A stretch of DNA of 64,000 nucleotides, taken from positions 32,189 to 96,188 of IMG/VR virus record IMGVR_UViG_3300042564_003823. One strand, given 5' to 3'. Both the position numbers and the translations under genes were made by a program. This stretch comes from a virus. The notes under the pieces were generated by a model, which saw nothing but the letters and a program-made list of their open reading frames with translations, was not told where the DNA came from and ran no database searches. Within the stretch, counting starts at the first letter, position 1. The number at the start of each line of letters is the position of its first letter. Positions 13,895 through 64,000 of the stretch are shown here, piece by piece.

Positions 13895-13915
13895 GTTTTT
13901 GGATTGTATATACGA

Positions 13916-13923
13916 CAAAGATA
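13916..13923 (-). promoter_or_regulatory. Possible Bacteroidota-type -7 element (TAnnTTTG)
   Basis: The coding strand reads TATCTTTG 21 nt before the ATG of the secreted protein, matching the Bacteroidota -7 consensus TAnnTTTG. No matching -33 TTTG is visible, so the call is weak. Confidence 0.35.
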
Positions 13924-35713: not shown

Positions 35714-36925
35714 ATGAGTAAAATTAAAGTATTAGTACTCCCATCAGACAGAACAGGTGTGGGAAAATTCAGAAGTGTTGATCCGCACGTTATGTTACAA
35801 AATAACCATTCGGAAGATTTTCACGTAGATATTGATTACGAACCAAAAATTAATGATATAAACTATTGGAAGCAATATGATATCGTTCATTTTCATAGAA
35901 GTATTGGTCAAGATTATAACCAAGCACCAATATTAATACAACGATTAAATGATATGGGTATTATTACCATTATGGATTTGGATGATTATTGGTTACCAAC
36001 AAAAGAACATCCTGTACATCAATTGGTATTACAAAATAAATTACATGAAAAAATCTTGGCAAATATGAAGGTTGCGGGACATGTTGTTACCACAACTTCT
36101 ATTTTCGCCACAGAAATATCAAAGTACAATAAAAATGTTTATGTGTTACCAAACGCAATTAACCCAAATGAATCTCAATTTAAACAAGAAACATTAAAGT
36201 CAGAAAAGTTACGTTTTGGTTGGTTAGGTGGTTCATCACATTTACATGATTTAAAATTGTTAGACGGAACAATAAATAAATTAAAACCTTATAAAGATCA
36301 GTTTAGTATGTATCTTTGTGGTTTTGATACAAGAGGTACTGTTACAGAAATTAATAAAGAAACTGGTGAACAAAAACAAAGACCTATTAACCCCGAAGAA
36401 ACGGTGTGGGCTCGTTATGAAGAAATATTCACAGACAATTACAGAATGGTGGATCCACAACATAAAGACTTTTTAATGAAATTTAAAGAGGAAGATTATA
36501 ATTCTAATGTTTTACCATTCTATAATCGTGTATGGACAAAACCTGTTACAAGTTATGCGGCAAATTATAGATGGTTTGATGTGTCATTAGCACCAATTAA
36601 AAATCATATCTTTAATAGAGTTAAATCACAACTTAAAGTTATTGAGGCTGGATTCTATAAGAAGGCAATAATAGCATCAAACGTTGGTCCATATACTATA
36701 GACTTGAAACATTCACTTAAAAATGGTGAGTTTGTTGACGGGAACGCATTACTTGTTGATGAAGTGAGGACGGGAGATTGGTCAAAGTACATGAAAAAAT
36801 TAATTGACAATCCTAATTGGGCATATGATTTAGGTCAAAGACTATACGAAACGGTTAAAGACACGTATGACCTAAATAAGGTAACAAAGGACAGAGCAGA
36901 ATTATATAAATCTTTAGTAAAATGA
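35714..36925 (+). CDS. Glycosyltransferase, GT4-like (GT-B fold)
   Basis: 403 residues. Pattern of GT-B enzymes: KVLVLPSDRTGVGKFRSVDP at the N-terminus, YDIVHFHRSIG, a linker VYVLPNAINPNES (the conserved PNG/PNA turn before the second domain), LRFGWLGGSSHLHDL as the start of domain two, and GFYKKAIIASNVGP as the donor-binding segment. Donor and acceptor cannot be read. First gene after a terminator; its promoter is not of the TATTTATA type. Its stop overlaps the next gene as ATGA. Confidence 0.8.
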   Translation: MSKIKVLVLPSDRTGVGKFRSVDPHVMLQNNHSEDFHVDIDYEPKINDINYWKQYDIVHFHRSIGQDYNQAPILIQRLNDMGIITIMDLDDYWLPTKEHPVHQLVLQNKLHEKILANMKVAGHVVTTTSIFATEISKYNKNVYVLPNAINPNESQFKQETLKSEKLRFGWLGGSSHLHDLKLLDGTINKLKPYKDQFSMYLCGFDTRGTVTEINKETGEQKQRPINPEETVWARYEEIFTDNYRMVDPQHKDFLMKFKEEDYNSNVLPFYNRVWTKPVTSYAANYRWFDVSLAPIKNHIFNRVKSQLKVIEAGFYKKAIIASNVGPYTIDLKHSLKNGEFVDGNALLVDEVRTGDWSKYMKKLIDNPNWAYDLGQRLYETVKDTYDLNKVTKDRAELYKSLVK

Positions 36926-37650
36926 TAAACATACCCATTACAAAAATATTATTCTTGGATATTGAAACTGTCGGTATCTGTAAAGATTGGTCTACATGCC
37001 AAGAAACAAACCCAAAGGTTGCTGAACAATTTGTTAAATACTTTGATTGGTTTTTGAAAAGGTTTCCTGAAGATAATTACGAAACTGATGGTCTTGAAGA
37101 AGATCTTCAAAAGATGAACGATGTTTATTCTAAACGATCGGCACTTGTTCCTGAGTTTGCAAAGATTGTTTGTGTATCAATGGCATTTGTGATGGAAAAT
37201 GGTGAAATTAAAAAACAAACATTTTCAGGTGATGACGAAAAAGAGTTATTATTACAAGTAAGAAATCTTCTTGACAGATGTCAAAAGTTAGATTTTTATC
37301 TTTGTGGTCATAACTTAAAGAATTTTGATATACCTATGATTGCAAAAAGAATGATTATTAATGGAATAATGCCATCAAAATTATTACCTTCATATGACAC
37401 AAAGCCTTGGGAAGTTAAAGCCATAGACACAAAAGAAATTTGGCAATATGGTGCATACTCATCAATTGGATCTTTAGATTTGGTGTGTGCAACATTAGAT
37501 ATACCCACACCTAAAGATGGTGAAATAAATGGGGGTATGGTTCATGAAGCATATTGGAATCATAATAGATTACAAGAAATTGCAGAGTATTGTGAAAAAG
37601 ATGTAAACGTATTAATAGATTTTATAAAAAAATTAAAAAATTTAAAATGA
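36922..37650 (+). CDS. 3'-5' exonuclease, DnaQ/PolB-like DEDD fold
   Basis: 242 residues. Exo I is LFLDIETVG (D16 and E18), Exo II is GHNLKNFDIP, and Exo III is the EYCEKDVNVL segment with the YxxxD spacing of DEDDy enzymes, all in the expected order. It resembles the free-standing exonucleases related to the PolB exonuclease domain. It may proofread or process DNA ends. It is placed within the glycan block by ATGA overlaps with both neighbours, so it shares a transcript with glycosyltransferases. Confidence 0.85.
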   Translation: MINIPITKILFLDIETVGICKDWSTCQETNPKVAEQFVKYFDWFLKRFPEDNYETDGLEEDLQKMNDVYSKRSALVPEFAKIVCVSMAFVMENGEIKKQTFSGDDEKELLLQVRNLLDRCQKLDFYLCGHNLKNFDIPMIAKRMIINGIMPSKLLPSYDTKPWEVKAIDTKEIWQYGAYSSIGSLDLVCATLDIPTPKDGEINGGMVHEAYWNHNRLQEIAEYCEKDVNVLIDFIKKLKNLK

Positions 37651-38249
37651 GTGAAAAATTAAAAAAGGTAATGGACAACATAAAAAAATTAAGGTCCGTA
37701 CAAAATAAAGTTTCGGGGTTTAACGAATCAAATGGTGAATTTAATATTGAAGACTTAGTATCAAATATGGGAGACTTAGATGACGTTTTGTATGATCAAT
37801 CACAAGGTAAATTAAATTTAGAATATACAAATGATTCTGATAATAAAGAACCGGAATACGCATATAAATCAGACTCAGGGTTTGATTTAAGATCTACAGA
37901 AGAAATGTGGGTCCAAGCAAATGATAGAAAACTTATACCAACAGGACTTAAATTTGATATACCAGATGGGTATGAAATACAAGTTAGAAGTAAAAGTGGT
38001 TTGGCATTAAAACAAGGACTGATGGTTTTAAATTCACCAGGTACTGTTGATAGCGGATATCAAGGAGAAGTTAAAGTTATTATTTTTAATACCACAAATG
38101 AAAGAATTAAAATTGAAAAGGGTCAAAAAATTGCACAAGCAGTTCTTTGTCCTGTAGTAAACGGAAAATGGGTTAATTTAATTAAAGTGGAAGAGATCGG
38201 TGAGAAAGATAGAAATAATCAAGGTTTCGGATCAACTGGATTAAAATAA
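37647..38249 (+). CDS. dut: dUTPase with 70-residue N-terminal extension
   Basis: 200 residues. All five trimeric-dUTPase motifs are seen: SDSGFDLRS (75-83), RSKSG (115-119), NSPGTVDSGYQG (129-140, catalytic D135), IEKGQKIAQAV (about 156-166), RNNQGFGSTG (189-198). It hydrolyses dUTP to dUMP, keeping uracil out of phage DNA. Residues 1-70 (helix, then an acidic stretch) precede the domain and are not part of the typical enzyme of about 140-150 residues. Overlaps the exonuclease stop by ATGA. Confidence 0.93.
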   Translation: MSEKLKKVMDNIKKLRSVQNKVSGFNESNGEFNIEDLVSNMGDLDDVLYDQSQGKLNLEYTNDSDNKEPEYAYKSDSGFDLRSTEEMWVQANDRKLIPTGLKFDIPDGYEIQVRSKSGLALKQGLMVLNSPGTVDSGYQGEVKVIIFNTTNERIKIEKGQKIAQAVLCPVVNGKWVNLIKVEEIGEKDRNNQGFGSTGLK

Positions 38250-38254
38250 TTAAG

Positions 38255-39895
38255 ATGATTACAATAGGATTTTCTACAAGAAGTATTGATAATGATTTTA
38301 TTAATATGTTAACTAAAACATCAGGTGTTCCTAATATTCAAATTATTCCTATCGAAAATAATGGTGAATATTCATTAACTGAGGTTTATAATAAAATACT
38401 TTTAAAGTCACATAACGATATTTTAGTATTGTGTCATGATGATATATATTTTGACTCAAAAAATTGGGGTCAAAAAATATTAAACCATTTTAAAAGAAAA
38501 CCTGATTACGGTATTTTAGGTTTGGCTGGAACAACAAATCTGCCAAAATCAGGAAAATGGTGGGACGACTTTTCTAAAATGAAAGGAATAGTTAACCATG
38601 AACATGAAGGAAAAAAATGGGAATCAAAATATTCTGCAAGTTCAGGTAACCAAATAGATGATGTTGTTTTAGTTGATGGTCTTTTTATAGTTATTAATAG
38701 AAAAAAAATAAAAGAAAAATTTAATGAAGAAATTAAAGGTTTTCATTTTTATGATGTTGATTTTTCTTTTAGAAACTTTATTAAAGATGTTAAAATAGGT
38801 GTTATGTATGATGTTAGGGTTACACATAAATCTATTGGTCAGACAAATGATCAGTGGGAAGAGAATAGGAAAATATTTTCAGAAAAATATAAAGATGTTT
38901 TACCTGTAAAAGTCAAAAGAAATTTAACTTTAGAATCACCATTAAAAGTATTATTATCTTGTTTGTTTTTTAAAACATTTACAGGATCGGAAATGTACGT
39001 ATATGAATTAGCAAGAGGGTTAAAAAAATTAAATTGTGATGTAACTGTATTGTCCGACATTAACGGACCCCTATCAAAACTAGCGCAACAACAAGGAATA
39101 AAAGTTTTACCATTTAATGATGCCCCTGGCTATAAGTTAGGTGACGGTAAATGGAGTTTAAATACACCACAAGGACCACAACTATCACAACCAAATATGA
39201 TGTACAAAATATCTGAAGTTAATTTTGACATCATACATACACAACATTTACCTGTAACAAATCAAATGTGCCAAATGTATCCTAATACCGATAAAATTTG
39301 CACAATACACTCAGAAGTTATTGAGTTAGAAAATCCTGTTATTAATGAAAAAATAAAAAAATACATTTGTATTAGACCTGAAATTCAAGACCATATAACA
39401 ACAAAGTTTGAGGTTGATAAAAATAATACTGAAGTCATATATAACCCTATTGATACAAATAGATTTAACACTAAAAACACAAGTGATGATGGTTATGTTT
39501 TATTTGTTGGAACTTTAGATTATTTACGAGAAAATACAATAAAGGATTTAGTTGAATACTCAAAATCAGTTTATAAAATGTTATGGTTGGTTGGTGAAAA
39601 TAAATCAAATTATTTAGATGACTTATTAAAAAATTCACACGTAAAACATTTTGAATCAACAAGTAAGGTTGAAACATTTGTTAAAAATTGTTCAGAGACT
39701 GCAGGAATACTTTTAGGTAGGACGACAATTGAAGGTTGGCTTTGTGGGAAACCAGGATGGATTTACAATGTTGATGAAAATGGTTATATTTTAAATAAAG
39801 AAAAACATAATGTACCTGACGACATTAAAAAATTTGACGGGTTAGGGGTTGCAAAAAAAATAAAAGAAGAATATATTAAAATTTTAAATGATTAA
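38255..39895 (+). CDS. Two-domain glycosyltransferase (GT2-like fused to GT4-like)
   Basis: 546 residues. Residues 1-220 look like a GT-A domain: MITIGFSTRSID, ILVLCHDDIYF (D-D-x of the metal site) and GFHFYDVDFSFRN. Residues 230-546 look like a GT-B enzyme: KVLLSCLFFKTFTGSEMYVY, FDIIHTQHLPV, VIYNPIDTNRF, YVLFVGTLDYL, and EGWLCGKPGWIYNV. One protein could add two different sugars in sequence. It is flanked by dUTPase and a GT2 gene, overlapping the latter by 8 nt. Confidence 0.78.
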   Translation: MITIGFSTRSIDNDFINMLTKTSGVPNIQIIPIENNGEYSLTEVYNKILLKSHNDILVLCHDDIYFDSKNWGQKILNHFKRKPDYGILGLAGTTNLPKSGKWWDDFSKMKGIVNHEHEGKKWESKYSASSGNQIDDVVLVDGLFIVINRKKIKEKFNEEIKGFHFYDVDFSFRNFIKDVKIGVMYDVRVTHKSIGQTNDQWEENRKIFSEKYKDVLPVKVKRNLTLESPLKVLLSCLFFKTFTGSEMYVYELARGLKKLNCDVTVLSDINGPLSKLAQQQGIKVLPFNDAPGYKLGDGKWSLNTPQGPQLSQPNMMYKISEVNFDIIHTQHLPVTNQMCQMYPNTDKICTIHSEVIELENPVINEKIKKYICIRPEIQDHITTKFEVDKNNTEVIYNPIDTNRFNTKNTSDDGYVLFVGTLDYLRENTIKDLVEYSKSVYKMLWLVGENKSNYLDDLLKNSHVKHFESTSKVETFVKNCSETAGILLGRTTIEGWLCGKPGWIYNVDENGYILNKEKHNVPDDIKKFDGLGVAKKIKEEYIKILND

Positions 39896-40619
39896 GATTG
39901 TTAGTTGTTTTTGGAATGTTGAAAATTACATTGAAAAATGTTTAAAGTCCGTAATGTCTCAAAATTTAAATAATTTTAAAATGTACTTAATTGATGACGT
40001 GTCAACAGATACTACGGTAGATAAAATAAATTCATTAATAGAAGGTGACAATAGATTTATATTAATTCAAAATTCAGAAAAGAAATTTAAATTAAAAAAT
40101 TTAGACGATTTATTAATGAATGAAAATCTTTTTGATGATGAGGATATTATTATTGAGCTGGATGGTGATGATTGGTTAGAAAATGATAATGTTTTATCAT
40201 TAATTAATGGAAAATACAATAATAATAAAAATTTGTGGATAACTAATGGTAGTTTTGTTTATTCCGATGGTAGATTTGGGTTTTCTTCAAAAGTTAATAC
40301 GGATACCGTCAGAACAGACACTTTTTTATTTTCTCATCTACGAACTTGGAAAGTACATTTGTGGAGAAATATAGAACAAAAATCTTTTTTAGATGAAAAT
40401 GGAGAATATTTTAAATCGGCGGGAGACGCAGCATACTCTTTTCCTATGGTAGAAATGGCTGGCGAAAAACATTATGAATATATCCCTAATATTTTGTATG
40501 TTTATAATGAACAAAATCCGTACAATGATCACAAATCCGGATCTTCTTCAGGTTCCGCATACGAACAATTAAGATGTTCAAACATCATAAGAAATTTACC
40601 AAAGTATCAAAAATTATAA
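39888..40619 (+). CDS. Glycosyltransferase family 2-like (GT-A)
   Basis: 243 residues. GT2 pattern: IVSCFWNVENYIEKCLKSVM at the N-terminus, YLIDDVSTDTT (nucleotide-binding D-D-x-S-T-D), IIIELDGDDWL (D-x-D metal site) and, later, AGDAAYSFPMVEMAG. Length is minimal for the family, so no C-terminal membrane anchor is present; the product acts in the cytoplasm. It follows the two-domain enzyme by overlapping starts and precedes a fucosyltransferase by 1 nt. Confidence 0.85.
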   Translation: MIKIVSCFWNVENYIEKCLKSVMSQNLNNFKMYLIDDVSTDTTVDKINSLIEGDNRFILIQNSEKKFKLKNLDDLLMNENLFDDEDIIIELDGDDWLENDNVLSLINGKYNNNKNLWITNGSFVYSDGRFGFSSKVNTDTVRTDTFLFSHLRTWKVHLWRNIEQKSFLDENGEYFKSAGDAAYSFPMVEMAGEKHYEYIPNILYVYNEQNPYNDHKSGSSSGSAYEQLRCSNIIRNLPKYQKL

Positions 40620-40620
40620 C

Positions 40621-41436
40621 ATGTTTATTACTAGTTACTTAATGGGTGGTTTAGGTAATCAAATGTTTCAAATATCTAAAGCGGTTACCGAAGGATTAAA
40701 AAATAATATACCCGTTTTTTTTAGAACAAACGCATTTATCCCTATGGAAGGTAACCAACCAACTAATTACACTGAAAATATTTTTAAAAAATTAAGTTTT
40801 GATAATTCAAAAATACCGACATTTAGACTTAATGAAAAAACTTGGGAGTACTACGAAAATAATTTTTTATACACACAACCAACCGAGTTTTACGGTTATT
40901 TCCAAAGTAGTAAAAACTTTTTACAATACAAAGATGAAATAAGAGATTTATTTTTACCTACAGAAAAATTTAAAAACAAAATTAAATTATTATATCCAAA
41001 AATATTTAATAAGAATTCTGTTTCAATACACGTCAGAAGAGGGGATTATTTAAGTATCTCTGAAGTACTCCCAGTTTTAGATAAAAGCTATTTTGATTAT
41101 TGTATTGAAAACTTCAAAGGATGTGACATATTCATTTTTTCAAATGATAAGGATTGGTGTAAAGAAAATTTAAAATATGATAACGTCACTGTTGTTGAGA
41201 ATTTAGATGACTATGAAGAATTGTGGGCAATCAGTTTATGTAATCATAATATTATGTCTAACTCTTCATTTTCTTGGTGGGGTTCTTATCTTAATATAAA
41301 TTATAATAAAAAAGTTTTTGTCCCATCCGTTTGGTTTGGTCCTAAAGGCGAAAAAGACTACCATTCAATATATGAAAATGATTGGAAAAAAATAAAAGTA
41401 AAATATGAAAATAATAATTTAAAATTATGTTGTTAA
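40621..41436 (+). CDS. GT11-family alpha-1,2-fucosyltransferase
   Basis: 271 residues. Hallmarks of GT11: MGGLGNQMFQ at residues 8-17 and the H-x-R-R-x-D motif SIHVRRGDY (H137-D142), plus NSSFSWWGSYL near residue 220. These enzymes transfer fucose from GDP-fucose to a galactose 2-OH. The GDP-fucose pathway genes are encoded 7-9 kb downstream (47749-49630), supporting the donor. It overlaps the next gene, an FkbM methyltransferase, by 10 nt. Confidence 0.9.
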   Translation: MFITSYLMGGLGNQMFQISKAVTEGLKNNIPVFFRTNAFIPMEGNQPTNYTENIFKKLSFDNSKIPTFRLNEKTWEYYENNFLYTQPTEFYGYFQSSKNFLQYKDEIRDLFLPTEKFKNKIKLLYPKIFNKNSVSIHVRRGDYLSISEVLPVLDKSYFDYCIENFKGCDIFIFSNDKDWCKENLKYDNVTVVENLDDYEELWAISLCNHNIMSNSSFSWWGSYLNINYNKKVFVPSVWFGPKGEKDYHSIYENDWKKIKVKYENNNLKLCC

Positions 41437-42038
41437 ATTTAGAAAATTTAAACTTAAAGTATGGCCTTAAAATAAAGGGCGTTTTACACATTGGAGCACA
41501 TGTTGGTCAAGAATTAGGCACCTATCAAAAATTAGGAATATCAAATGTTATGTTTTTTGAACCTGTACAAAAAACATTTGACAGACTTAAACAAAATGTT
41601 GGCGAGTCGGCAATTATCATTAATACGGCTCTTGGAAACATTGAAGGTGAAGTTGAGATGTATACTGAAACAATAAATGAAGGACAATCAAGTTCGGTCT
41701 TAGAACCAGAATACCATTTAATTCAACATCCCAACATTAAATTTAACGGTAGAGAAAAAGTTAAAATCACAAAATTAGATAATTTTATAGAAAATAAAGA
41801 AAACTATAACTTTATTAATGTTGATGTACAAGGGTATGAATTAGAAGTTTTTAAAGGTGGGTCTGAATACTTAAAAAGTATTGATTACATAATGACAGAA
41901 GTGAATAGGGCTGAACTTTATAAAGGTTGTGCAAGAATAGAAGATTTAGATATGTTTTTAAGTCAATACGGATTTGAAAGGGTTGAAACAACTTGGGATG
42001 GTGGAACATGGGGAGACGCGTTTTATGTTAAAAGATAG
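41427..42038 (+). CDS. FkbM-family methyltransferase (1 of 3)
   Basis: 203 residues. SAM-binding motif I is VLHIGAHVGQE, and the FkbM signature NVDVQGYELEVFKGG appears at about 130-144. These enzymes O-methylate sugars or other hydroxyls. Coupled to a fucosyltransferase upstream (10-nt overlap) and to the GT10-like gene downstream (14-nt overlap), so its likely substrate is the same glycan. The C-terminus WDGGTWGDAFYVKR is typical of the family. Confidence 0.85.
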   Translation: MLLNLENLNLKYGLKIKGVLHIGAHVGQELGTYQKLGISNVMFFEPVQKTFDRLKQNVGESAIIINTALGNIEGEVEMYTETINEGQSSSVLEPEYHLIQHPNIKFNGREKVKITKLDNFIENKENYNFINVDVQGYELEVFKGGSEYLKSIDYIMTEVNRAELYKGCARIEDLDMFLSQYGFERVETTWDGGTWGDAFYVKR

Positions 42039-42849
42039 TTTATACATACACGACACAATGTTTTCTCACGCAAAATCAAGTAGTTGGTACAATGAACCAG
42101 AACTTTTTGATTGGGTTAGAAAGTACGATGAAAATCATTTGGTTTTTACGGACTATTCTTTACACAATGTTGATGATTTTTCAAACAATAAAAAATATGC
42201 ATGGTTATTAGAATCGCCAGAAATTACTCCTTTTGCCTACGATTACATTAAAGAAAATCACAAAAAATTTGATTTGATTTTTACATTTAACAAAGAATTA
42301 TTGGAAATATCGGACAAATTTATTTTATTACCATATGGAGGTTGTTGGATAGAAACCAAAGATAGAAAAATACACGATAAATTTAAAGAGACCTCAATCA
42401 TTTTATCAAATAAAAAAATAACTGAGGGTCACAAACTTAGACACAAAATTGTTGACATTTTTGATAAAATAGACATGTATGGATATAAAAACCCAATAGA
42501 CAAAAAAATAAAGGCGCTTAAAGATTATCGTTTTTCAATTGTTATAGAAAATTGTAAAAAAGATTTTTATTTCAGTGAAAAGATTGTAGATTGCTTCATT
42601 ACAGGAACAATTCCAATATATTGGGGGTGCCCGTCAATAGGTGAGTTTTTTGATCAAGAAGGTATACTTACATTTGATACAATAGAAGATTTAAAAATAA
42701 TACTTAATTCCCTAAATAAAGATTTATACGAGTCCAAAAAAACGCATATAAAAAATAATTTTGAGAAATGTAAAAAGTATTTAATAGCGGATAACATTTT
42801 ATATAATAAACTAAAAGAATATGAAAAAACATCTAGTCAATTATTCTAA
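42025..42849 (+). CDS. GT10-like alpha-1,3-fucosyltransferase
   Basis: 274 residues from the ATG at 42025; an upstream ATG at 41974 lies inside the methyltransferase gene in another frame and is less likely. The C-terminal domain has the GT10 pattern: YRFSIVIENCKKDFYFSEKI, then TGTIPIYWGCPSIGEFF (equivalent to family motif of E-N-S-x-x-x-D-Y-V-T-E-K and Y-W-G). The N-terminal part has YAWLLESPEITPFAYDY. It uses GDP-fucose, which the cluster can make. It overlaps both neighbours. Confidence 0.78.
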   Translation: MLKDSLYIHDTMFSHAKSSSWYNEPELFDWVRKYDENHLVFTDYSLHNVDDFSNNKKYAWLLESPEITPFAYDYIKENHKKFDLIFTFNKELLEISDKFILLPYGGCWIETKDRKIHDKFKETSIILSNKKITEGHKLRHKIVDIFDKIDMYGYKNPIDKKIKALKDYRFSIVIENCKKDFYFSEKIVDCFITGTIPIYWGCPSIGEFFDQEGILTFDTIEDLKIILNSLNKDLYESKKTHIKNNFEKCKKYLIADNILYNKLKEYEKTSSQLF

Positions 42850-43531
42850 CAACACTCACCATAATTCACAAATATTAAACACAAATTCGGCGTTGTCAGA
42901 GGGAGGGTTTGATTATGTTTTTTCTTTTAAGTACTCAGACTTAGAAGAGAATTTTATAAAAGAAAACATAAAAATACTGTCCCAACAAAGGGGTGCAGGT
43001 TATTGGATGTGGAAACCATATGTAATAAAAAAAGCATTAGAATCTATTAATGAAAATGAAATATTAATGTATTCAGATTCTGGAATATCGTTCATAAAAA
43101 AAATAGACGAGATCGTTGAAATCATGGACGCAACCGAAGAAAAGTTGTTGTTGTTTGAACTTGAAGATATACACCCAAATAAAAGGTGGACTAAACGAGA
43201 CTGTTTTGTTTTGATGGATTTGGATAGTGAACTTTATTTATCTAAAAACCAATTATTAGCAAGTTATGTTTTAATGAGAAAAAATGATTTTGTTATTAAT
43301 TTCATAGATGAGTGGTTAAAATATGCAAAAGATTATAGGGTAATAACAGACTCACCAAACGAATGTGGTTTACCAAACTATAAAGAATTTGTTGATCACC
43401 GACACGATCAGAGTATTCTTAGTTTACTAGGGAGAAAACATAACATTAAAAACATACCTGATATTTCTCAGTTTGGTGAGGGTAGAAGGGTTACATCACA
43501 AATTTTAAATCATCATAGAAATAGAAGTTAA
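42821..43531 (+). CDS. Probable glycosyltransferase with D-x-G metal site
   Basis: 236 residues. GAGYWMWKPYVIKKAL followed by EILMYSDSGISF looks like the GT-A nucleotide-sugar region of small glycosyltransferases in capsule and O-antigen clusters. The rest lacks a clear family label. It starts 29 nt before the end of the fucosyltransferase gene. The C-terminus is rich in His/Arg (DHRHDQSILSLLGR). Sugar transferred unknown. Confidence 0.6.
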   Translation: MKKHLVNYSNNTHHNSQILNTNSALSEGGFDYVFSFKYSDLEENFIKENIKILSQQRGAGYWMWKPYVIKKALESINENEILMYSDSGISFIKKIDEIVEIMDATEEKLLLFELEDIHPNKRWTKRDCFVLMDLDSELYLSKNQLLASYVLMRKNDFVINFIDEWLKYAKDYRVITDSPNECGLPNYKEFVDHRHDQSILSLLGRKHNIKNIPDISQFGEGRRVTSQILNHHRNRS

Positions 43532-43532
43532 T

Positions 43533-44264
43533 ATGAAAATTAAATATGCAGTAATGGGTAGCGATATGAACCCACTTTATTATGAGTTTTGGCCTATAAT
43601 TTCTAAGGTCTGGAAAGAAGTTTTTAATATCATTCCGGTGTTAGGATTAATATGTGACGAAGATTCAGAACTAATAGAAGATAATTATGGTTTAGTAAAA
43701 AAATTCAAATCAATAGACGGTATAGATTACGGATTCCAATCACAAATTGTTAGATTTTACTTACCAACGATATTGGACGGAATTTGTATAACATCAGATA
43801 TTGATATGATGCCCTTATCAAAAGACTATTTTATAAAAAATATAGAAAATTTTGATGATTCTAATTTTTATGTTATGACATCTGACAATCCAGAATGTTT
43901 ACAAAATAAAGAATATCAAATGTGTTACAATATAGCAAAACCAAAAATGTTCAAACATGTTTTAAACATAAACGATTCATGGGTTGAGTTTGTAAATAAA
44001 CTTAAAAATTTAGGTTTTGGTTGGACAACAGATCAAAGATACTTATACGATATGGTCAACTCATATAGTAATAAAGAAAAAATCGTGTTATTGAATAGGG
44101 GGTTTACGGGGTTAGCAAATAATAGGATAGACCGAGCGATATGGAGATACGACCCAAATTTAGTTATTAAAGGACACTATATAGACTCACATTTAGTTAG
44201 ACCATACAATCAATATAAATCAGAGGTTGACGCACTTGCGAAATTACTTTATTTAAACAATTAA
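43533..44264 (+). CDS. Probable glycosyltransferase (GT-A, D-x-D)
   Basis: 243 residues. A segment ICITSDIDMMPLS is a D-x-D-like metal site in GT-A enzymes acting in glycan assembly; FGWTTDQRYLYDMV then follows in a position typical of the acceptor base. N-terminus KYAVMGSDMNPLYYEFWP is not typical of GT2. It is preceded by a 1-nt gap and followed by another transferase with the same 1-nt gap. Confidence 0.6.
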   Translation: MKIKYAVMGSDMNPLYYEFWPIISKVWKEVFNIIPVLGLICDEDSELIEDNYGLVKKFKSIDGIDYGFQSQIVRFYLPTILDGICITSDIDMMPLSKDYFIKNIENFDDSNFYVMTSDNPECLQNKEYQMCYNIAKPKMFKHVLNINDSWVEFVNKLKNLGFGWTTDQRYLYDMVNSYSNKEKIVLLNRGFTGLANNRIDRAIWRYDPNLVIKGHYIDSHLVRPYNQYKSEVDALAKLLYLNN

Positions 44265-44265
44265 C

Positions 44266-45027
44266 ATGGAATTAATAACTGGAAATAAATTTAAACGAAT
44301 TTGTCATTATTCATATGACGAGTTTGGTTTTGTAATACATTCAGAGCCAACTGTTAATCAAATATTAAAAGTATTTGTTAAAATCGATTATGTTCATAAT
44401 TTTTTTTCAAACCCTCCATTAAGACCATTTATTTTAATAACCCATAATGGTGATTTACCAGTTGACGGTAATTATTTACGTTACATGGATAACCCAAATT
44501 TGATAAAATGGTATGGTCAAAATATAATGACCGTTCATCCAAAATTACAATCAATTCCAATAGGTATTGCAAATGAAAAATGGCCTCATGGTAATGAGTC
44601 TGTTTTTTTTGAAGTTATGCAAAAAGACATAAAAAAAGAACGGCTAATTTATGTTAATTTTGATGTAAACACAAATAGGTTTGAACGTAACGATTGTCTA
44701 TCAGAAATAAATAAAAAAGGTTTAGAAATAGGTGTTAAATTACCATTTAACCAATACTTAGAGGAAGTAGCAAAAAGTTATTTTGTTGTTTCACCAAACG
44801 GTAATGGTGTTGACTGCCATAAAACTTGGGAATCATTATATTTAAAGACTATCCCGATTGTTACTGAATCAATCAACATAAATTTTTATAAAAACTTACC
44901 AATACTTATAATAAAAAGATGGAAAGATTTCAACCCCAATGACCTAACTATTGATAAATATCAAAAAATTTGGGGTGGTTTTAATGTTGAAGCGATTAAC
45001 GTTAAAAAGTTTTTAAATAATGGATAA
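44266..45027 (+). CDS. Probable glycosyltransferase with exostosin-like C-terminal part
   Basis: 253 residues. YFVVSPNGNGVDCHKTWESL, then LKTIPIVTESI, is the pattern of the donor-binding half of exostosin-like and GT10-like enzymes (a short P-x-G segment, C-x-R/K-x-W-E, then a T-I-P-I). The first half has RPFILITHNGDLPVDG. Family uncertain. An 8-nt overlap connects it to the GT8-like gene downstream. Confidence 0.55.
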   Translation: MELITGNKFKRICHYSYDEFGFVIHSEPTVNQILKVFVKIDYVHNFFSNPPLRPFILITHNGDLPVDGNYLRYMDNPNLIKWYGQNIMTVHPKLQSIPIGIANEKWPHGNESVFFEVMQKDIKKERLIYVNFDVNTNRFERNDCLSEINKKGLEIGVKLPFNQYLEEVAKSYFVVSPNGNGVDCHKTWESLYLKTIPIVTESININFYKNLPILIIKRWKDFNPNDLTIDKYQKIWGGFNVEAINVKKFLNNG

Positions 45028-45778
45028 AATTTGTTGCGTATATACGTGTAATTCACCTTATTTTAATGATTTTAAAATATCAGCAAATCAACTATTAACA
45101 AACGGTAAGTTTGGTGGCGATATAGTATTAATAATAGGTGATGATTTAGAAACAGAGACGATTAATAATGATGAATTTATTAAATCAAATAATATTATCC
45201 TTAAAAAATTTAAAAACATAACTTTCCCTATTGAAACTAATATTAAATTAGAATCAATTAAAGTTGATGGTAGAAACATAAACAAAAAATTTCAGTGGCA
45301 CAAATTACATGTTTTTGATGTATTTTTTAAAAATTGGGATTATGTTTTTTATTTAGATTGTGGTATGAAAATTCATGGTGATATTGATAAAATACTAAAA
45401 ACAAAAAAAGAAGGTTGTTTAGTGGCCCAGTCCGATAATTACCCTAATAATGGTTGGGACTTATCGATACAGTTTGATAAAACAGACCCAATCTTTAACA
45501 CATTAAATCAAAAATATAGTTTAAATATTGATTACCCCCAAACAGGGATTATGTTATTTGACACTAAAATAATTTCTGATAATCTAATTAACAATTTGAT
45601 TAATTTAACATGTGAATTTCCAATCACTAAAACCAATGAACAAGCAATAATTGCTTTATATTTTACAAACATAGAAAAAAAATGGGTTTTAATACCCATA
45701 GGTGATGAAGAAACATATTATTATTCTTCATTCAGAATACATAACGATAAAAATTACATAATTTCAAGATATAATTAA
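45020..45778 (+). CDS. Glycosyltransferase, GT8-like
   Basis: 252 residues. KICCVYTCNSPYFNDF at the N-terminus, YVFYLDCGMKIHGDIDKIL (D-x-x/D-C-D-type metal segment), and PQTGIMLFDTKI (G-x-x-x-F/L-N/D as in GT8 enzymes) suggest a retaining GT-A transferase. The D-x-D is replaced by L-D-C-G, as in several phage relatives, so divalent-metal use is uncertain. Upstream overlap 8 nt; downstream gap 1 nt. Confidence 0.65.
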   Translation: MDKICCVYTCNSPYFNDFKISANQLLTNGKFGGDIVLIIGDDLETETINNDEFIKSNNIILKKFKNITFPIETNIKLESIKVDGRNINKKFQWHKLHVFDVFFKNWDYVFYLDCGMKIHGDIDKILKTKKEGCLVAQSDNYPNNGWDLSIQFDKTDPIFNTLNQKYSLNIDYPQTGIMLFDTKIISDNLINNLINLTCEFPITKTNEQAIIALYFTNIEKKWVLIPIGDEETYYYSSFRIHNDKNYIISRYN

Positions 45779-45779
45779 T

Positions 45780-46373
45780 ATGAGATACGATTTTATAGAA
45801 ATAGGAACATCTGATTTTGATACTGAATTACAAAAATCAGACGATAATACTATGGGTATATCAATAGAACCAATAAAATTTTATTTGGATAGATTACCTA
45901 ATAAAAAAAATGTTTTAAAAATTAATGCTGCTGTTTCGAATTACAACGGGTCAATAGATGTTTTTTACGTTTCAGATGAAACAATACAAAAATTTGGTTT
46001 ACCAGATTATGTAAAAGGTCAAAACTCAATTGGTTCACCGCACCCAGAAGTACTTAAATGGAACCATTTAGGTTTAACAATAGATAACATAGCCTCTGAA
46101 AAAGTAACAGTCATTAACTTTGAAACCATTTTTAAAAATCACAACGTTGATAGTGTTGGATTTTTAAAAATAGACACTGAAGGTCATGATTGTGTTATCA
46201 TGGGTGATTACATTGATTACTGTTCAGCTAATAAAATTTTAGTTGCCGATAAAATAATGTTTGAATCGAATATGTTAACAAATAGTGATGTCATTTCTAA
46301 TACAATAAACAGATGTGTTGAATTAGGTTATAAATTAATTTTTAGAGGTGAAAATACAATATTATCAAAATAA
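45780..46373 (+). CDS. FkbM-family methyltransferase (2 of 3)
   Basis: 197 residues. Motif I is DFIEIGTSDFDTEL rather than the usual DxGANxG, and GFLKIDTEGHDCVIM is the FkbM signature later in the fold. SAM binding is likely but the altered motif I suggests diverged substrate. It ends overlapping by one nucleotide the start of the second GT11-like gene, repeating the fucosyltransferase-methyltransferase pairing seen upstream. Confidence 0.8.
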   Translation: MRYDFIEIGTSDFDTELQKSDDNTMGISIEPIKFYLDRLPNKKNVLKINAAVSNYNGSIDVFYVSDETIQKFGLPDYVKGQNSIGSPHPEVLKWNHLGLTIDNIASEKVTVINFETIFKNHNVDSVGFLKIDTEGHDCVIMGDYIDYCSANKILVADKIMFESNMLTNSDVISNTINRCVELGYKLIFRGENTILSK

Positions 46374-47137
46374 TGGTTTCAATTGTTTATAGTGGTAGAT
46401 TAGGTAACAATTTATTTCAATACGTTGCATCATATATTTTTGCTAAAAAATTTGGTTTTAAAATATCATCAAATATTGTCGAAAACAAATTTAATTTACC
46501 ATCGTTATACGGAAATAGTGAATTTTCTAAAACAATAAATGTGGATGATAACAATTTTATGTCTCTATTGAATTCAGATAAATTAGGTATGGCTCACTAT
46601 CACTTCGTAGGTTATTATCAAATTAAAGATTTTATTTTAGAATATCGTAATGAAATAAAACAAATGTTTAATCTTTCATATTTACCTAACACCAAAGATG
46701 AGGTTTTTGTTGCGTACAGAATTGGTGATATCAACGGAATTAGACAAATGTTACCATATGAATATTATGAAGACGCTTTAACCAAAATAAACCCAATTAG
46801 TGGTTATATAACTTCAGACACGCCAGACCATCCTAATGTTTTACGTTTGATTGAAAAATTCAATTTAAAAAATTATAACGGATCACCTTTAGAAACTATT
46901 GATTTTGCTAAAAATTTTAACAATTTAGTGTTAAGTGAAGGTAGTTTTAGTTGGTGGATAGGATTTTTAAGTAATGCGAAAAACATTTATTTTAATGATA
47001 GGGAAAGGTTTTGGCATGGGGACATGTTTGTAATACCTGAATGGAAACCCCTTAAATACGATTGGGATCCATCATGTGTAGGAGTAAATAATATTTTAAA
47101 ATGTAAAAAAATAAAAAAACATGAAAATAGCCTTTGA
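46373..47137 (+). CDS. GT11-like fucosyltransferase with degenerate catalytic motif
   Basis: 254 residues. The N-terminus YSGRLGNNLFQYVASYIF is the GT11 GGLGNQMFQ equivalent and SEGSFSWWIGFLS matches the C-terminal SFSWW. But H-x-R-R-x-D appears as A-Y-R-I-G-D (in VFVAYRIGDI), losing the His and one Arg. It may have another sugar specificity or be inactive. It overlaps the third methyltransferase by 17 nt. Confidence 0.72.
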   Translation: MVSIVYSGRLGNNLFQYVASYIFAKKFGFKISSNIVENKFNLPSLYGNSEFSKTINVDDNNFMSLLNSDKLGMAHYHFVGYYQIKDFILEYRNEIKQMFNLSYLPNTKDEVFVAYRIGDINGIRQMLPYEYYEDALTKINPISGYITSDTPDHPNVLRLIEKFNLKNYNGSPLETIDFAKNFNNLVLSEGSFSWWIGFLSNAKNIYFNDRERFWHGDMFVIPEWKPLKYDWDPSCVGVNNILKCKKIKKHENSL

Positions 47138-47747
47138 TATTGGTGCAAACATCGGACAAACGATTGACGCATTATTTAATGATTATGATAAAATAATTGC
47201 CTTTGAAGCAAACCCAAATTTGGCTTTAAATTTAAAATCGCGATATACACAAGATAAAATTATAATTGAATCTTTAGGTGTATCTGATAAAAATGAGGTT
47301 AAAACATTTAATATTTCAAATTCACATGTTGTTTCAACCTTTTCAAATGATTGGATTACAAACTCTAGATTTACTGGTGTTTATAATTGGGATACGACAA
47401 TTCAAGTAAATACAATCACATTAGATGATATAATAAAAAAATATGGTATTCCATACTTTATTAAAGTAGATGTTGAAGGATATGAATACGAAGTCTTTCA
47501 AGGATTAACGTCATTACTTGAAGAAACTTATTTTGCTTTTGAATGGGCTGAGGAACAATATGAAAAAATAAATCAAACTATAGACTATTTAAAAAGTTTA
47601 GGTTATAGTAATTTTGATTATACTTACCAAGATAACCTATTGGTTTTAGAAACCATTAATTGGAAAAAATGGGAAGATTTAACTTTACATTCTGACATAA
47701 ACCCAAGTAGAAAAGAAAAATGGGGTATGATATATTTTAAAAAATAA
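47121..47747 (+). CDS. FkbM-family methyltransferase (3 of 3)
   Basis: 208 residues. MKIAFDIGANIGQTIDALF is the canonical SAM motif I at the extreme N-terminus, and PYFIKVDVEGYEYEVFQGL is the FkbM signature. C-terminus ends KWGMIYFKK. It is the most canonical of the three methyltransferases here and directly precedes the GDP-mannose dehydratase by 1 nt. Confidence 0.85.
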   Translation: MKIAFDIGANIGQTIDALFNDYDKIIAFEANPNLALNLKSRYTQDKIIIESLGVSDKNEVKTFNISNSHVVSTFSNDWITNSRFTGVYNWDTTIQVNTITLDDIIKKYGIPYFIKVDVEGYEYEVFQGLTSLLEETYFAFEWAEEQYEKINQTIDYLKSLGYSNFDYTYQDNLLVLETINWKKWEDLTLHSDINPSRKEKWGMIYFKK

Positions 47748-47748
47748 A

Positions 47749-48726
47749 ATGAAAAAAACACTAATAACAGGAATTAACGGACAAGATGGTTCATATCTTG
47801 CGGAATTTTTATTAGATAAAAATTATGAAGTTTGGGGTACCGTAAAAAGAAATTCGGTATCAGAAACGCAATCATCAAGAATTGAGTCATTAAGAAATGA
47901 TGGTAATATTAATTTAGAGTACGCCGATTTAACAGATATGGCGTCTTTAGTAAGAGTATTACAAAAAGTTCAACCAGATGAAATTTACAATTTAGCTGCA
48001 CAATCACATGTAAGGGTTTCATTTGATCAACCCATTTATACCGCAAACGCAACTGGATTAGGTACTTTAAATTTATTAGAAGCGGTTAGAATGGTTTCAC
48101 CACATTCTAAAATTTATCAAGCGTCTTCTTCAGAAATGTTTGGTAATTCAATTGACAAGGATGGATACCAAAGAGAAACAACACCGATGAATCCGGTATC
48201 ACCTTATGGTTGTGCTAAAGTTTTTTCATATAATATTTGTAGAAATTACAGAAACTCATACGGAATGAAAATATGGAATGGTATTCTTTTCAACCACGAA
48301 TCACCAAGAAGAGGAACTAACTTTGTTACTAATAAAGTTGTAAAGGCAGCAGTAAGAATTAGTTTAGGGATACAAGACAAATTACATATTGGTAATTTGT
48401 CCGCAACTAGAGATTGGGGTCATGCTAAAGATTATGTCGAAGCAATGTGGTTAATGTTACAAACAGATAAACCAGATGATTATGTATGTGCAACAGGAGT
48501 ATCTCATTCAGTTAAAGATTTGTGTGAATATACCTTTAGTTCATTAGGTTTAAATTATTTAGATTATATTGTTGTCGATGAAAAACATTTCAGACCTGAA
48601 GAATTAGAAAATTTAAAAGGAGATTCTTCAAAAATAAGAAAAGAAATATTATGGCAACCTACATATACTTTTGAAACAATGATAGATGAAATGATAGAGT
48701 ATTGGTTAAATTATTATGGAAAATAA
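47749..48726 (+). CDS. gmd: GDP-mannose 4,6-dehydratase
   Basis: 325 residues. Short-chain dehydrogenase fold with TGINGQDG (residues 7-14) for NADP binding and catalytic S127/S128, E129, Y153, K157 (SSSEMFG and SPYGCAK). It converts GDP-mannose to GDP-4-keto-6-deoxymannose, the first step to GDP-fucose. Length is close to bacterial homologues but a little shorter (typical about 340-370). Overlaps the synthase gene by 11 nt, so the two pathway enzymes are made together. Confidence 0.96.
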   Translation: MKKTLITGINGQDGSYLAEFLLDKNYEVWGTVKRNSVSETQSSRIESLRNDGNINLEYADLTDMASLVRVLQKVQPDEIYNLAAQSHVRVSFDQPIYTANATGLGTLNLLEAVRMVSPHSKIYQASSSEMFGNSIDKDGYQRETTPMNPVSPYGCAKVFSYNICRNYRNSYGMKIWNGILFNHESPRRGTNFVTNKVVKAAVRISLGIQDKLHIGNLSATRDWGHAKDYVEAMWLMLQTDKPDDYVCATGVSHSVKDLCEYTFSSLGLNYLDYIVVDEKHFRPEELENLKGDSSKIRKEILWQPTYTFETMIDEMIEYWLNYYGK

Positions 48727-49630
48727 AATATTAGTTACCGGTGGTTATGGTTTAGTTGGGACTGAATTTGCACAAAAAAAATATGTAAAGCCAACATCAA
48801 TAGACGTTGATTTTAGAAACACAAGTGAAGTTAATGAATTTTTTAGTTTAAACCATTTTGATGGAATTATTCATTGTGCTGCTAAAGTTGGTGGAGTTGG
48901 TAGTAATATGAATTTCAAGGGAGAGTTTTTTTACGATAACATAATGATGAACACAAATGTCATTGAATCTGCCAGACGTTTTGGTGTTAAAAAATTAGTT
49001 GCGTTTTTATCTACTTGTGTTTTTCCTGATAAAGTAGAATACCCCTTAACTGAATCAAAAATACATTTAGGTCCTCCACATTTTTCAAATGATGCATATG
49101 CGTATGCTAAAAGAATGGCTGACGTACAAATAAGATCTTATAGAGAACAATATGGACTTAATTATACGTCGGTAATACCTACAAACATTTATGGTCCTAA
49201 CGACAATTACAACATAGAAAATGGTCATGTAATACCATCATTAATTCACAAGTGTTATTTGGCAAGAGAAAATAAAACAGATTTTAAAATATGGGGAACA
49301 GGAAAACCATTAAGGGAGTTTATTTTTAGTAAAGATGTTGCAAAATTAACAGAATGGGTTTTAGAAAACTACGAAGAAAGTGAACCAATAATACTTTCAA
49401 CATCTGACGAGATCTCAATAAAAGAAATTGTTGATGTAATAACTGAATTAATGAATTATAAGGGTAATGTAGTTTGGGATAAGGATAAACCTGACGGCCA
49501 ACATAGAAAGCCAAGTGATAACACTAAAATAAAAAAATATTTACCTGATTTTAAATTTACACCTCTTTATGAAGGACTAAAAGAAACTATTGAATATTTT
49601 GAAAACAATTATAATATTATAAGAAAATAA
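48716..49630 (+). CDS. fcl: GDP-L-fucose synthase
   Basis: 304 residues. TGGYGLVG (residues 8-15) binds NADP(H); catalytic S99 and C101 (LSTCVFP), Y128 and K132 (DAYAYAK) and the GPNDNYNIENGHVIPSLIH segment are as in E. coli Fcl (WcaG). It performs the 3,5-epimerisation and 4-reduction that yields GDP-L-fucose from the dehydratase product. Followed after 1 nt by phoH. Confidence 0.96.
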   Translation: MENKILVTGGYGLVGTEFAQKKYVKPTSIDVDFRNTSEVNEFFSLNHFDGIIHCAAKVGGVGSNMNFKGEFFYDNIMMNTNVIESARRFGVKKLVAFLSTCVFPDKVEYPLTESKIHLGPPHFSNDAYAYAKRMADVQIRSYREQYGLNYTSVIPTNIYGPNDNYNIENGHVIPSLIHKCYLARENKTDFKIWGTGKPLREFIFSKDVAKLTEWVLENYEESEPIILSTSDEISIKEIVDVITELMNYKGNVVWDKDKPDGQHRKPSDNTKIKKYLPDFKFTPLYEGLKETIEYFENNYNIIRK

Positions 49631-61480: not shown

Positions 61481-61930
61481 ATGGATATCAGTAAAATAAT
61501 AAAAAGAGTATTAAGAGAAGAAGAAAAAAAACATTCAAGTAGATACATGTTCTTTTCAAATCTTGAACAAATGAGAAGACAATGTGATATGTTGTTAGAT
61601 ATGGATCAAGATGAAATTGAATCTATTTTAGAAAACGGTCACGATTGGGCTCAAGACCATATCTCTGAAGCTAAAAATAATATGGACCAAGTTTTTGATT
61701 TTTTAAAAAATGAAATGGAAGGCGGTAGTGATTATGAAGAAGACGAAGATATGATTGAAGAAGGTCGTAAAAAAACGGGAACAAAATTATGTGCTAGAGG
61801 TAAGTCCGCAGCTAAGGCTAAATTTGACGTGTACCCAAGTGCATATGCAAATGGTTATGCTGTACAAGTTTGTAAAGGAAAAATAAAAGGATTAGACGGT
61901 AAAAAACATTGTTCAGGAGCCTTTTGTTAA
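61481..61930 (+). CDS. Capsid-targeting-like small protein with YPSAYANGYA motif
   Basis: 149 residues. The leader MDISKIIKRVLREEEKK ends with L-R-E at residues 11-13. An acidic helical middle (DMDQDEIESILENGHDWAQD) and a Glu/Asp stretch lead into the C-terminal domain TKLCARGKSAAKAKFDVYPS, AYANGYAVQVCKGKIKG, a short motif seen in other phage and virus hypothetical proteins. The two Cys may bind metal. Convergent with the basic protein gene, stops overlapping by 4 nt. Likely packaged or DNA-associated. Confidence 0.65.
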   Translation: MDISKIIKRVLREEEKKHSSRYMFFSNLEQMRRQCDMLLDMDQDEIESILENGHDWAQDHISEAKNNMDQVFDFLKNEMEGGSDYEEDEDMIEEGRKKTGTKLCARGKSAAKAKFDVYPSAYANGYAVQVCKGKIKGLDGKKHCSGAFC

Positions 61931-62643
61931 AGACTTGATAAAATATTTCTTATTATAATATCTAAAGACTCATTTTGAGTCTTTTTCTTTTTTGGTTTGT
62001 AAGATGTCATTACAGGTTTTTGACCTTTACCTGATTGTGTGTCTTTTTTCTCGGCCCTTCTTTTTTGTTGACATGCGGATCTTTTTTGTGAATCTGACAT
62101 TTTACCTGCAACTCCAGCTGCTCTACATTTAGGGTATGCCCCCTTACTAGTATCACTTCTTCCACAAGGAGGATGTTTACCGTCAACTTTTCTACATATA
62201 TCAACCCATGGACCTTTTGGTTGTGAAGAACCCTTTGGTTTTTTCTTTTTTCCAAACCAAACGGCTAAATCTTCATTTAGAGGGATTTTATCTAATTCAA
62301 CCCATTCATTAACAGGAACAATTCTTTTACCTTTACCAGGTGTTTGATTTATTATTCCTCCGTCTTCATCATTTGCTTGAGGATGTTTTTTATTATATTT
62401 AGAAATTTTACGAGATTTTGATTCTAATTTTTTTCTATTTTTTTTGTGTGAATCTAAACTACCATCATAACTATCATATTCTAAATCTGCATTAAAAAAT
62501 TTTGAAACTTTATTTGTAAAGGGCCCCATAGCACTGTCTTCCCAATCTATTTCACCCATTGTTAATGGTCCATTATAATAACCTGCATATCTGTCAGAAT
62601 TAGCCTCTTTCAATATGTTTTTAACAATTAAATTAATGTTCAT
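61927..62643 (-). CDS. Basic Lys-rich protein with capsid-targeting-like N-terminus
   Basis: 238 residues, Lys-rich. The leader MNINLIVKNILKEANSD ends with L-K-E at residues 11-13. A central block LAVWFGKKKKPKGSSQPKGP then WVDICRKVDGKHPPCGR, GAYPKCRAAGVAGKMSDSQK and SACQQKRRAEK is a conserved Cys/His/Lys-rich domain found in T4-type marine phage proteins; it may bind zinc and DNA. The C-terminus NESLDIIIRNILSSL mirrors the leader helix. Start overlaps the upstream stop as ATGA. Confidence 0.7.
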   Translation of the reverse strand: MNINLIVKNILKEANSDRYAGYYNGPLTMGEIDWEDSAMGPFTNKVSKFFNADLEYDSYDGSLDSHKKNRKKLESKSRKISKYNKKHPQANDEDGGIINQTPGKGKRIVPVNEWVELDKIPLNEDLAVWFGKKKKPKGSSQPKGPWVDICRKVDGKHPPCGRSDTSKGAYPKCRAAGVAGKMSDSQKRSACQQKRRAEKKDTQSGKGQKPVMTSYKPKKKKTQNESLDIIIRNILSSL

Positions 62644-63104
62644 AGATTCTTCCTATTATCTAATAAATATCTGTATATTGTTAAATGTGTGTGATAAAAT
62701 ACTAATGTTATTATACCCCAAGTTTCCGCCCAAAATAATCCATTAAATAAAAAAAGAGAAGATAACAAAAATATAATTAGATAGTATCTAAACTTTTTTA
62801 TACTCCATAATGAAACACCTGAAAAAATAAAAAATAGTATTGCAAAAATATTATGTAAAACAAAATGGTCGGTTACTGAAAATGAAGTTAAAAGTAAAAG
62901 AAGTGTTGCAGGTACTCTCCATTTTGGTATTTTAAAAAAGAAAAAACTAACAAGGGTGTTTGTGATTATGAAAAGTGGTTGGAGTGGTGTTTCCCATGAT
63001 CTTGATATTGCTTGTTCATCACCATATAGGAAATAAATGATGAAAGGTTGAACCACCGCTAATGCCGATGCAAACAACCTTTCAAACATATCCCATCTAT
63101 TCAT
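62640..63104 (-). CDS. Multi-span membrane protein
   Basis: 154 residues with about five hydrophobic helices (including LFASALAVVQPFIIYFLYG, PLFIITNTLVSFFFF, VPATLLLLLTSFSV, NIFAILFFIFSGVSLW and YYLIIFLLSSLFLFNGLFW). No residue pattern identifies a transporter. It begins immediately after the stop of the T9SS-type gene and overlaps the next start (ATGA), so it is in one operon with them. May anchor a phage-encoded factor in the inner membrane. Confidence 0.7.
   Translation of the reverse strand: MNRWDMFERLFASALAVVQPFIIYFLYGDEQAISRSWETPLQPLFIITNTLVSFFFFKIPKWRVPATLLLLLTSFSVTDHFVLHNIFAILFFIFSGVSLWSIKKFRYYLIIFLLSSLFLFNGLFWAETWGIITLVFYHTHLTIYRYLLDNRKNL
62662..62669 (-). promoter_or_regulatory. 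TATTTATT variant element inside the upstream gene
   Basis: Coding-strand TATTTATT followed by AGATAATAGG, 18 nt before the ATG at 62643; lies within the membrane-protein gene, one mismatch from the common octamer. Confidence 0.3.
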
Positions 63105-64000
63105 TTATCTAATCATTTTTCTCATAGTTCCATCATCATAAATTTCAATTATAATTCCATGTGCATTTTCAGGTTTAACTTCTTGCCCTAATAAATTTAT
63201 ATATTTAACAATTTTTTTGTTTGTACTATCCCTTGTGATAACTATCGGACCATATGTTTCAAATTTACCATCAATATCAAATTGTTGTAACCTATAATAA
63301 ACAATACTATTTAAATTATTATCAATGTAATAATATTTTAATTCTTCTGTTGAATTTCCTGCTGACGGAATTGTTGTTATTTTTCTCCAGTTTTCACCAT
63401 CAATACTTGATTCTAAATCAAAATGACTTGAATTTTGTTCGGAATCGGTAGACCATTTTATTACGTTCCATTGTTGGTATGGTAATCCCTCAAATTGAGT
63501 TAATTCAACAGGTAATGCAACACTTAATAGTACACTATATTCTTCTATTTCACCATAACCATACCCTGTCGAATAATAAGCATCATTTGTTGGAGTTGCA
63601 TTCCAAACAGAAAGTACTCTCATTTTAACTGTACCCCCGATAGCATCATTTGGTACATTAACAGAAGCGGAACCTGTTGCACCTGGTGCTGATAATAACA
63701 CATTTTCTGTTGTTTGAAATACTCCGTCTTGGTCCCAATCAATCCAAGCGACATAACCAGGGTACGAACCAAAAGTTAGTGTACCTGAAACAGATATTGT
63801 ATAAACGCCACCAATATCTAAATTACCGACAATTGAAAGGTAATCAGAATATGCGTCTCCGTCTTCAGTAGATGTGTTATTAATATCACTTAAAGTTACA
63901 TTTGTAATATAATCACCATCACTAACCCCATAAGTATATGGTGGTGCAAGTTCTAATGTGACTAAAATTGGTGATGTAACACCGGCGGGACAAGAACCAT
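63105..64000 (-). CDS. Secreted-type protein with GEVED-like domain and T9SS sorting-like C-terminus (N-terminus beyond window)
   Basis: The frame is open from the right edge; the N-terminus is missing, and a GTG at 63701 is not a real start. At least 297 residues. Residues near the edge form a GEVED-like domain (GYVAWIDWDQDGVFQTTENV, GTVKMRVLSVWN, GYGEIEEYSV). Then LPVELTQFEG with VIKWSTDSEQNSSHFDLESS and VYYRLQQFDIDGKFETYGPI is a beta-sandwich common in Bacteroidota secreted proteins, ending with a C-terminal INLLGQEVKPE then GIIIEIYDDGTMRKMIR, the pattern of a type A sorting domain for type IX secretion. Two genes follow in the same operon. Confidence 0.75.
   Translation of the reverse strand, partial: GSCPAGVTSPILVTLELAPPYTYGVSDGDYITNVTLSDINNTSTEDGDAYSDYLSIVGNLDIGGVYTISVSGTLTFGSYPGYVAWIDWDQDGVFQTTENVLLSAPGATGSASVNVPNDAIGGTVKMRVLSVWNATPTNDAYYSTGYGYGEIEEYSVLLSVALPVELTQFEGLPYQQWNVIKWSTDSEQNSSHFDLESSIDGENWRKITTIPSAGNSTEELKYYYIDNNLNSIVYYRLQQFDIDGKFETYGPIVITRDSTNKKIVKYINLLGQEVKPENAHGIIIEIYDDGTMRKMIR

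Follow-up and report, generated by a model that had tools for sequence, protein, structure and literature searches.

The question raised by this locus is whether a phage gene encodes a protein that the bacterial host would export through its type IX secretion system (T9SS), as the C-terminus of the product had led the first-pass annotation to propose. The window, i.e., the whole stretch of 64,000 nucleotides analyzed, corresponds to the terminal 64 kb of an IMG/VR viral record of 96,188 bases. At its end, a minus-strand open frame enters at the edge of the contig (63998) and terminates with a stop codon at 63105, no start codon being present in the window. It represents a 5'-truncated gene for a predicted exported protein (63105..64000, (-)), of which the last 297 codons and the stop are present; the N-terminus, with the signal peptide, is encoded past the edge of the contig. 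The 297-residue fragment contains a GEVED domain (63531..63755, (-), fragment residues 82-156; Pfam PF20009, E=2.3e-15, 57.6 bits vs. a gathering score of 24.4), which confirmed the GEVED-like domain noticed earlier. It is followed by a segment reading 'LPVELTQFEG...WSTDSEQNSSHFDLESSIDGENW...YYRLQQFDIDGKFETYGPI', which corresponds to a fibronectin-like 'PVEL...YYRLxQxDxDG' domain (63231..63515, (-), about residues 162-256; hereafter PVEL domain). The protein finishes in a short C-terminal tail of ~40 residues plus the stop (63105..63227, (-); KKIVKYINLLGQEV...GIIIEIYDDGTMRKMIR), delimited by alignments and regarded here as a putative outer-membrane export signal. The C-terminal motifs described in the first-pass annotation were present in this tail, which ends in ...KKIVKYINLLGQEVKPENAHGIIIEIYDDGTMRKMIR with DDGTMRKMIR as last residues, and they were conserved among the viral relatives.

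A first scan of viral contigs with the window fragment retrieved 30 relatives, and a second one with an alignment of the tail retrieved 122, the best 80 of which were followed up. Members of the family were mostly 350-1082 amino acids long and had in common only the last ~143 residues, the remainder consisting of GEVED, CUB, FN3 or PF23759 (GBD_T9SS_assoc, galactose-binding-like) domains, or of nothing recognizable; domains typical of T9SS cargo, PF23759 included, are found in the family. Short-tail proteins also appeared in four unannotated huge phages of the 'phages' collection, and huge uncultured phages such as LR745206 (635 kb) represent a further context of the gene. The existence of viral relatives, the dN/dS values of 0.13-0.29 obtained for the window copy against close relatives, and the residues invariant in 21 phage proteins (N268, G271, Q272, D289, G290, T291, and K294) indicated that this C-terminus did not arise by chance.

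The presence of a signal peptide had been set beforehand as the observation on which the proposal should stand or fall, and it was found in the complete relatives as well as in an overlapping contig. This contig, L033 (5,181 bases), stops inside this gene and, where it overlaps the end of the window, matches it at 132 of 133 bases; the N-terminus of its protein is MKNFLILLFTLISFLGFTQ|VSSLYSF, a Sec signal peptide in which the bar marks the presumed cleavage point. According to our own heuristic (charged start, hydrophobic core, and cleavage-like end), signal peptides occurred in 87/88 family proteins with a 5' end vs. 14/914 other open reading frames (ORFs) of at least 100 amino acids from the same contigs, near-duplicate contigs being included in these counts. 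The sole failure, in L168, corresponded to a shortened copy, its near relatives L170, L172, and L173 being longer and provided with a signal peptide.

Sorting-domain models of Pfam and NCBIfam, including PF18962/TIGR04183, gave no match at E<=1 with the tail in the phage members scanned, nor did those of NCBIfam in three bacterial short-tail members. Profile comparison by hhalign between the tail and 20 canonical type A tails of the same bacteria yielded a probability of 1.6%, and the canonical YPNP motif was absent from the short tail. The type A sorting domain initially proposed was thus not supported, and membership of the tail in the CTD types A, B, or C was discarded, none being indicated by Pfam, NCBIfam, or hhalign. 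AlphaFold modeled residues 155-297 as a seven-strand FN3-like domain (pLDDT about 94), after which the tail contributes three more strands (pLDDT 89.5). Compared with PDB folds, the tail model gave weak FN3/Ig-like matches only, none at E<=0.001, and a sequence search of the PDB retrieved nothing relevant. The full-length predicted structure of an 858-aa relative was poor (pLDDT 58) and was set aside.

More information was obtained from the bacteria that possess the same tail. In Bacteroidota, it was strictly C-terminal in 48/48 distinct matches, on diverse N-terminal parts, and 29/35 complete bacterial short-tail proteins displayed a signal peptide, against 230/588 control ORFs, a figure inflated by a looser start rule that makes this contrast weaker than in phages. 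Up to 26 short-tail copies were present per bacterial genome, with >100 canonical type A tails beside them, and full-length SprA was found in 9/9 bacterial genomes using the short tail. After the PVEL domain, 62 bacterial proteins carried a type A tail, 35 the short tail, none both, and 16 were assigned to neither, and the short tail followed in 100/100 phage ORFs. It was not confined to PVEL proteins in bacteria, where 55 short-tail ORFs were counted vs. 35 unique PVEL proteins with the tail. Judged from these sequences, the short tail acts like a sorting module of SprA-bearing Bacteroidota, where it occupies the position of the type A tail behind the PVEL domain.

The distribution of the tail was narrow. 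It was detected in 58/100 genomes of the family of Brumimicrobium and in 95/199 of its order (Crocinitomicaceae-type), vs. 1/296 genomes drawn over the phylum Bacteroidota, and the named relatives with a full match included Fluviicola, Brumimicrobium, and other Flavobacteriales/Crocinitomicaceae. The C-terminus had been taken as pointing to the host phylum, and it actually narrows the range well below that level. On the basis of tail kinship, these phages probably infect aquatic Bacteroidota of Crocinitomicaceae type.

The genomic location of the gene was characterized in its relatives. In ~60 contigs of T4-type phages, the major capsid gene (MCP; phrog_138) and the head protease gene (phrog_207) preceded it, either immediately or at a short distance, and the gene of a 238-aa protein (cluster c3) came after it. 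In the window, the latter gene is located at 61927..62643 (-), and its product possesses a capsid-targeting-like N-terminus (phrog_23735, function unassigned). Between the exported-protein gene and c3, the window contains the gene of a 154-aa membrane protein (TM154; 62640..63104, (-)), the next of the operon, which starts at the base directly after the stop of the exported-protein gene and overlaps the c3 gene by 4 bases. The operon described by the first-pass annotation was therefore recovered as regards the membrane protein and the capsid-targeting-like protein downstream, but the exported-protein gene is probably not its start, since in relatives including L033 the major capsid gene precedes it on the same strand and would here lie beyond the contig end. 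The suggestion that the protein might be displayed on lysogenized cells found no support, the neighborhood being a T4-type head/baseplate module and no integrase having been noticed in the record.

Near-identical phages differed markedly at this site. Among phage pairs with capsid proteins 90-95% identical, median identity was 25% for the ectodomain and 49% for the tail; in the pair L018/L141, MCP and c3 were 99.8 and 99% identical, respectively, yet the ectodomains shared only 37% identity. In an independent sample selected by the capsid gene alone, 12/47 intact MCP-c3 intervals contained the tail gene and 35/47 did not, several of the latter being nearly empty, and homing-endonuclease-like genes were frequent between MCP and c3. 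Ectodomain exchange and the occupancy of 12/47 together mark the gene as an accessory cassette, and the MCP-c3 interval as the hotspot that houses it. Present at the same place in 59 contigs, c3 is the downstream border of the cassette site and stands outside the export module. Other contexts of the gene exist, beside an AAA ATPase and GroEL (L028-L032, L155, and L174) and, also away from head genes, in L153 and L164. The GroEL-like chaperonin gene near the exported-protein gene was observed in a second phage lineage (L155:11907-13517, L174:5967-7583, and L031:12485-14101). No such gene is annotated beside the capsid gene in Flavobacterium phage immuto, the nearest cultured relative by capsid protein (~40% identity).

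We propose, with a probability of about 0.75, that the gene encodes a phage-borne surface protein, that the host exports it through Sec and the T9SS, and that infected cells display it or release it. The protein would be made with the late head proteins, a timing deduced from its position downstream of the major capsid gene. The Sec signal peptide would direct it across the inner membrane, and the non-canonical short tail would then address it to the SprA translocon of the host T9SS and so to the cell exterior, on the surface or in the medium. The export tags are kept whereas the exposed ectodomain (GEVED, CUB, FN3, or galactose-binding-like) is swapped. Thus, of the T9SS-style protein originally suggested, the signal peptide and the sorting-module behavior stood and the type A class did not; export itself is what we infer, and its dependence on the T9SS appears rather likely from the company the tail keeps in bacterial genomes.

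Export by Sec only is an unlikely alternative, in which the tail would be no export signal and the product either a periplasmic protein or one whose fibronectin-like domain is capped at its C-terminus by the tail. The failure of sorting-domain models to match the tail agrees with it, as do the three extra strands set by AlphaFold after the FN3-like domain; a mere cap, however, would hardly recur in bacteria without the PVEL domain and on varied N-terminal parts, nor take the position of the type A tail after that domain. Position next to the major capsid gene and in the same direction would rather suit a virion protein, whether a fibre or a head-decorating protein of the T4 Hoc kind, the hydrophobic N-terminus and the tail then having virion roles. 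Ig/FN3-like domains and hypervariability are common in virion adhesins. Against this, a Sec signal peptide (87/88) would take the protein out of the cytoplasm, where heads are assembled, the tail is common to many unrelated secreted bacterial proteins, the same gene occurs in the non-head contexts mentioned above (L028-L032, L153, L155, and L164), and 35 of 47 relatives do without it, so that we consider a virion role quite improbable. The bacterial type of the domains and tail could also recall a recently captured, non-selected fragment of a host gene. This is scarcely credible given the dN/dS values of 0.13-0.29, the presence of the gene in >120 contigs of several phage lineages, and the tree built with FastTree for the 143-residue module, in which 48 viral sequences grouped as a single clade (viral node support 0.92; midpoint rooting) that excluded the 13 bacterial relatives sampled. 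Within the limited bacterial sampling, this split points to an ancient acquisition that phages have since retained and shuffled among themselves, rather than to repeated recent capture.

With export to the surface of infected cells as the preferred reading, the combination of conserved tags, swapped ectodomains, and a dispensable gene suggests that the protein acts at the cell surface in conflicts between phages or between phage and host. Our first choice of function, at slightly under even odds, would be superinfection exclusion or the masking of receptors or glycans; the position among late head genes is a poorer fit to superinfection exclusion than that of an early gene would be. Adhesion or enzymatic remodeling of the surface comes second and is less likely, and the protease encoded nearby in some contigs fits remodeling. 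A broader and somewhat more speculative proposal is that the tail constitutes a minimal T9SS sorting class (~40 residues) of one Bacteroidota order, which T4-type phages would long have kept for swappable ectodomains, sometimes together with a secreted subtilisin, as a variable superinfection-exclusion or surface-remodeling system.

The protease in question is a subtilase (PF00082, 3.7e-31), encoded as a second Sec-tagged protein near the exported-protein gene, and mostly adjoining it, in 15 contigs (L146:4761-6215, for example, and 14 related contigs). It bears its own short type-A-like tail (e.g., ...VIDINGKVTNLENALPGFYFIVSNNLIIKKIYKN), and the collection of annotated phages contained no relatives at E<=1e-20. 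As for the membrane protein, TM154 was present in 43 contigs of the exported-protein family. It is phage-specific and polytopic, has invariant H, E, and W residues, and was found in >110 viral contigs of several lineages (L231-L310). Searches for bacterial relatives, run without a positive control, gave matches in 0/100 and 0/148 genomes. Strict functional pairing of TM154 with the exported protein was rejected, as other phages possess TM154 but not the exported-protein gene, and as the bacterial genomes examined yielded no relatives of TM154.

Several known systems resemble this one in part. The 76-kb circular Bacteroidetes phage Cryophage carries three variable genes with type A domains, whose proposed T9SS cargo (an endoglucanase, a GH39 protein, and a PA14 protein) was termed a unique occurrence (Bellas et al., 2020; PMC7468147). 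In both cases genes for putative T9SS cargo lie amid phage genes and are swapped between near-identical phages, and the functional guess of those authors, superinfection exclusion or competition, was the same as ours; in contrast to the canonical type A domains of Cryophage, the family described here belongs to T4-type phages, uses a non-canonical short tail, occupies a capsid-adjacent hotspot, and extends over >120 contigs. T9SS sorting domains near head genes have also been reported in crAss-like phages (PMC6949934), the proteins of which share with this family a T9SS-type tail, putative in the present case, in such a location but differ in their BACON repeats, their gut phages, and a sorting domain found by standard annotation.

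Regarding the tail itself, three CTD types, A, B, and C, are distinguished in reviews (PMC10202324, PMC12618676). Like the type A domain (TIGR04183/PF18962), the short tail is C-terminal, follows the same FN3-like domain, ends in GxI/Y...K/R, and is carried by Sec-tagged proteins of those same host genomes; unlike it (about 72-100 residues, YPNP), it has ~40 residues, no YPNP, and no model or profile match. With types B and C (PF13585/TIGR04131; ChiA type) it would share being an alternative signal for the same machine, putative in this case, whereas it lacks a Pfam or NCBIfam match, and type B is far longer and uses SprF-like shuttles (PMC10202324, PMC12618676). A literature search, with subscription papers outside its scope, found no description of the short tail, which is possibly a new class of sorting signal. 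Phage T9SS cargo having been reported once already (PMC7468147), the novelty lies in the class of tail, the scale, the hotspot next to the capsid gene, and the partner subtilisin.

One phage lineage thus appears to make wide use of the host T9SS, by means of an export tag missed by annotation pipelines. Use by a phage of the dedicated outer-membrane secretion system of its host has, to our knowledge, rarely been shown. If true, the tail would provide a short, testable T9SS signal and a marker for host prediction in uncultured Bacteroidota phages, and the near-isogenic phages would be a natural panel of swapped ectodomains showing what infected cells display, and why.

Other genes related to the cell envelope or to export were observed elsewhere in these phages. 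In the lineage of the window, L355:12625-15327 encodes, between the conserved phage genes c3 and c1, a 900-aa protein with a signal peptide, a CarboxypepD_reg-like domain, and a TonB-dependent receptor plug (PF07715, 1.1e-10), which by its domains is a phage-borne outer-membrane receptor. The window itself includes a run of sugar-related genes (35714-49630, (+)), with a GDP-mannose 4,6-dehydratase (47749-48726, (+); PF16363, E=2.5e-123), a GDP-fucose-synthase-like epimerase (48716-49630, (+)), two family 11 glycosyltransferases (40621-41436 and 46373-47137, (+)), other glycosyltransferases, and an FkbM methyltransferase, which looks like a phage fucosylation/glycosylation island. Finally, a small protein without Pfam match, encoded at 13502-13918 (-), displayed an apparent signal peptide (MKNLILILFLFFNLLNLHSQ|INI...).
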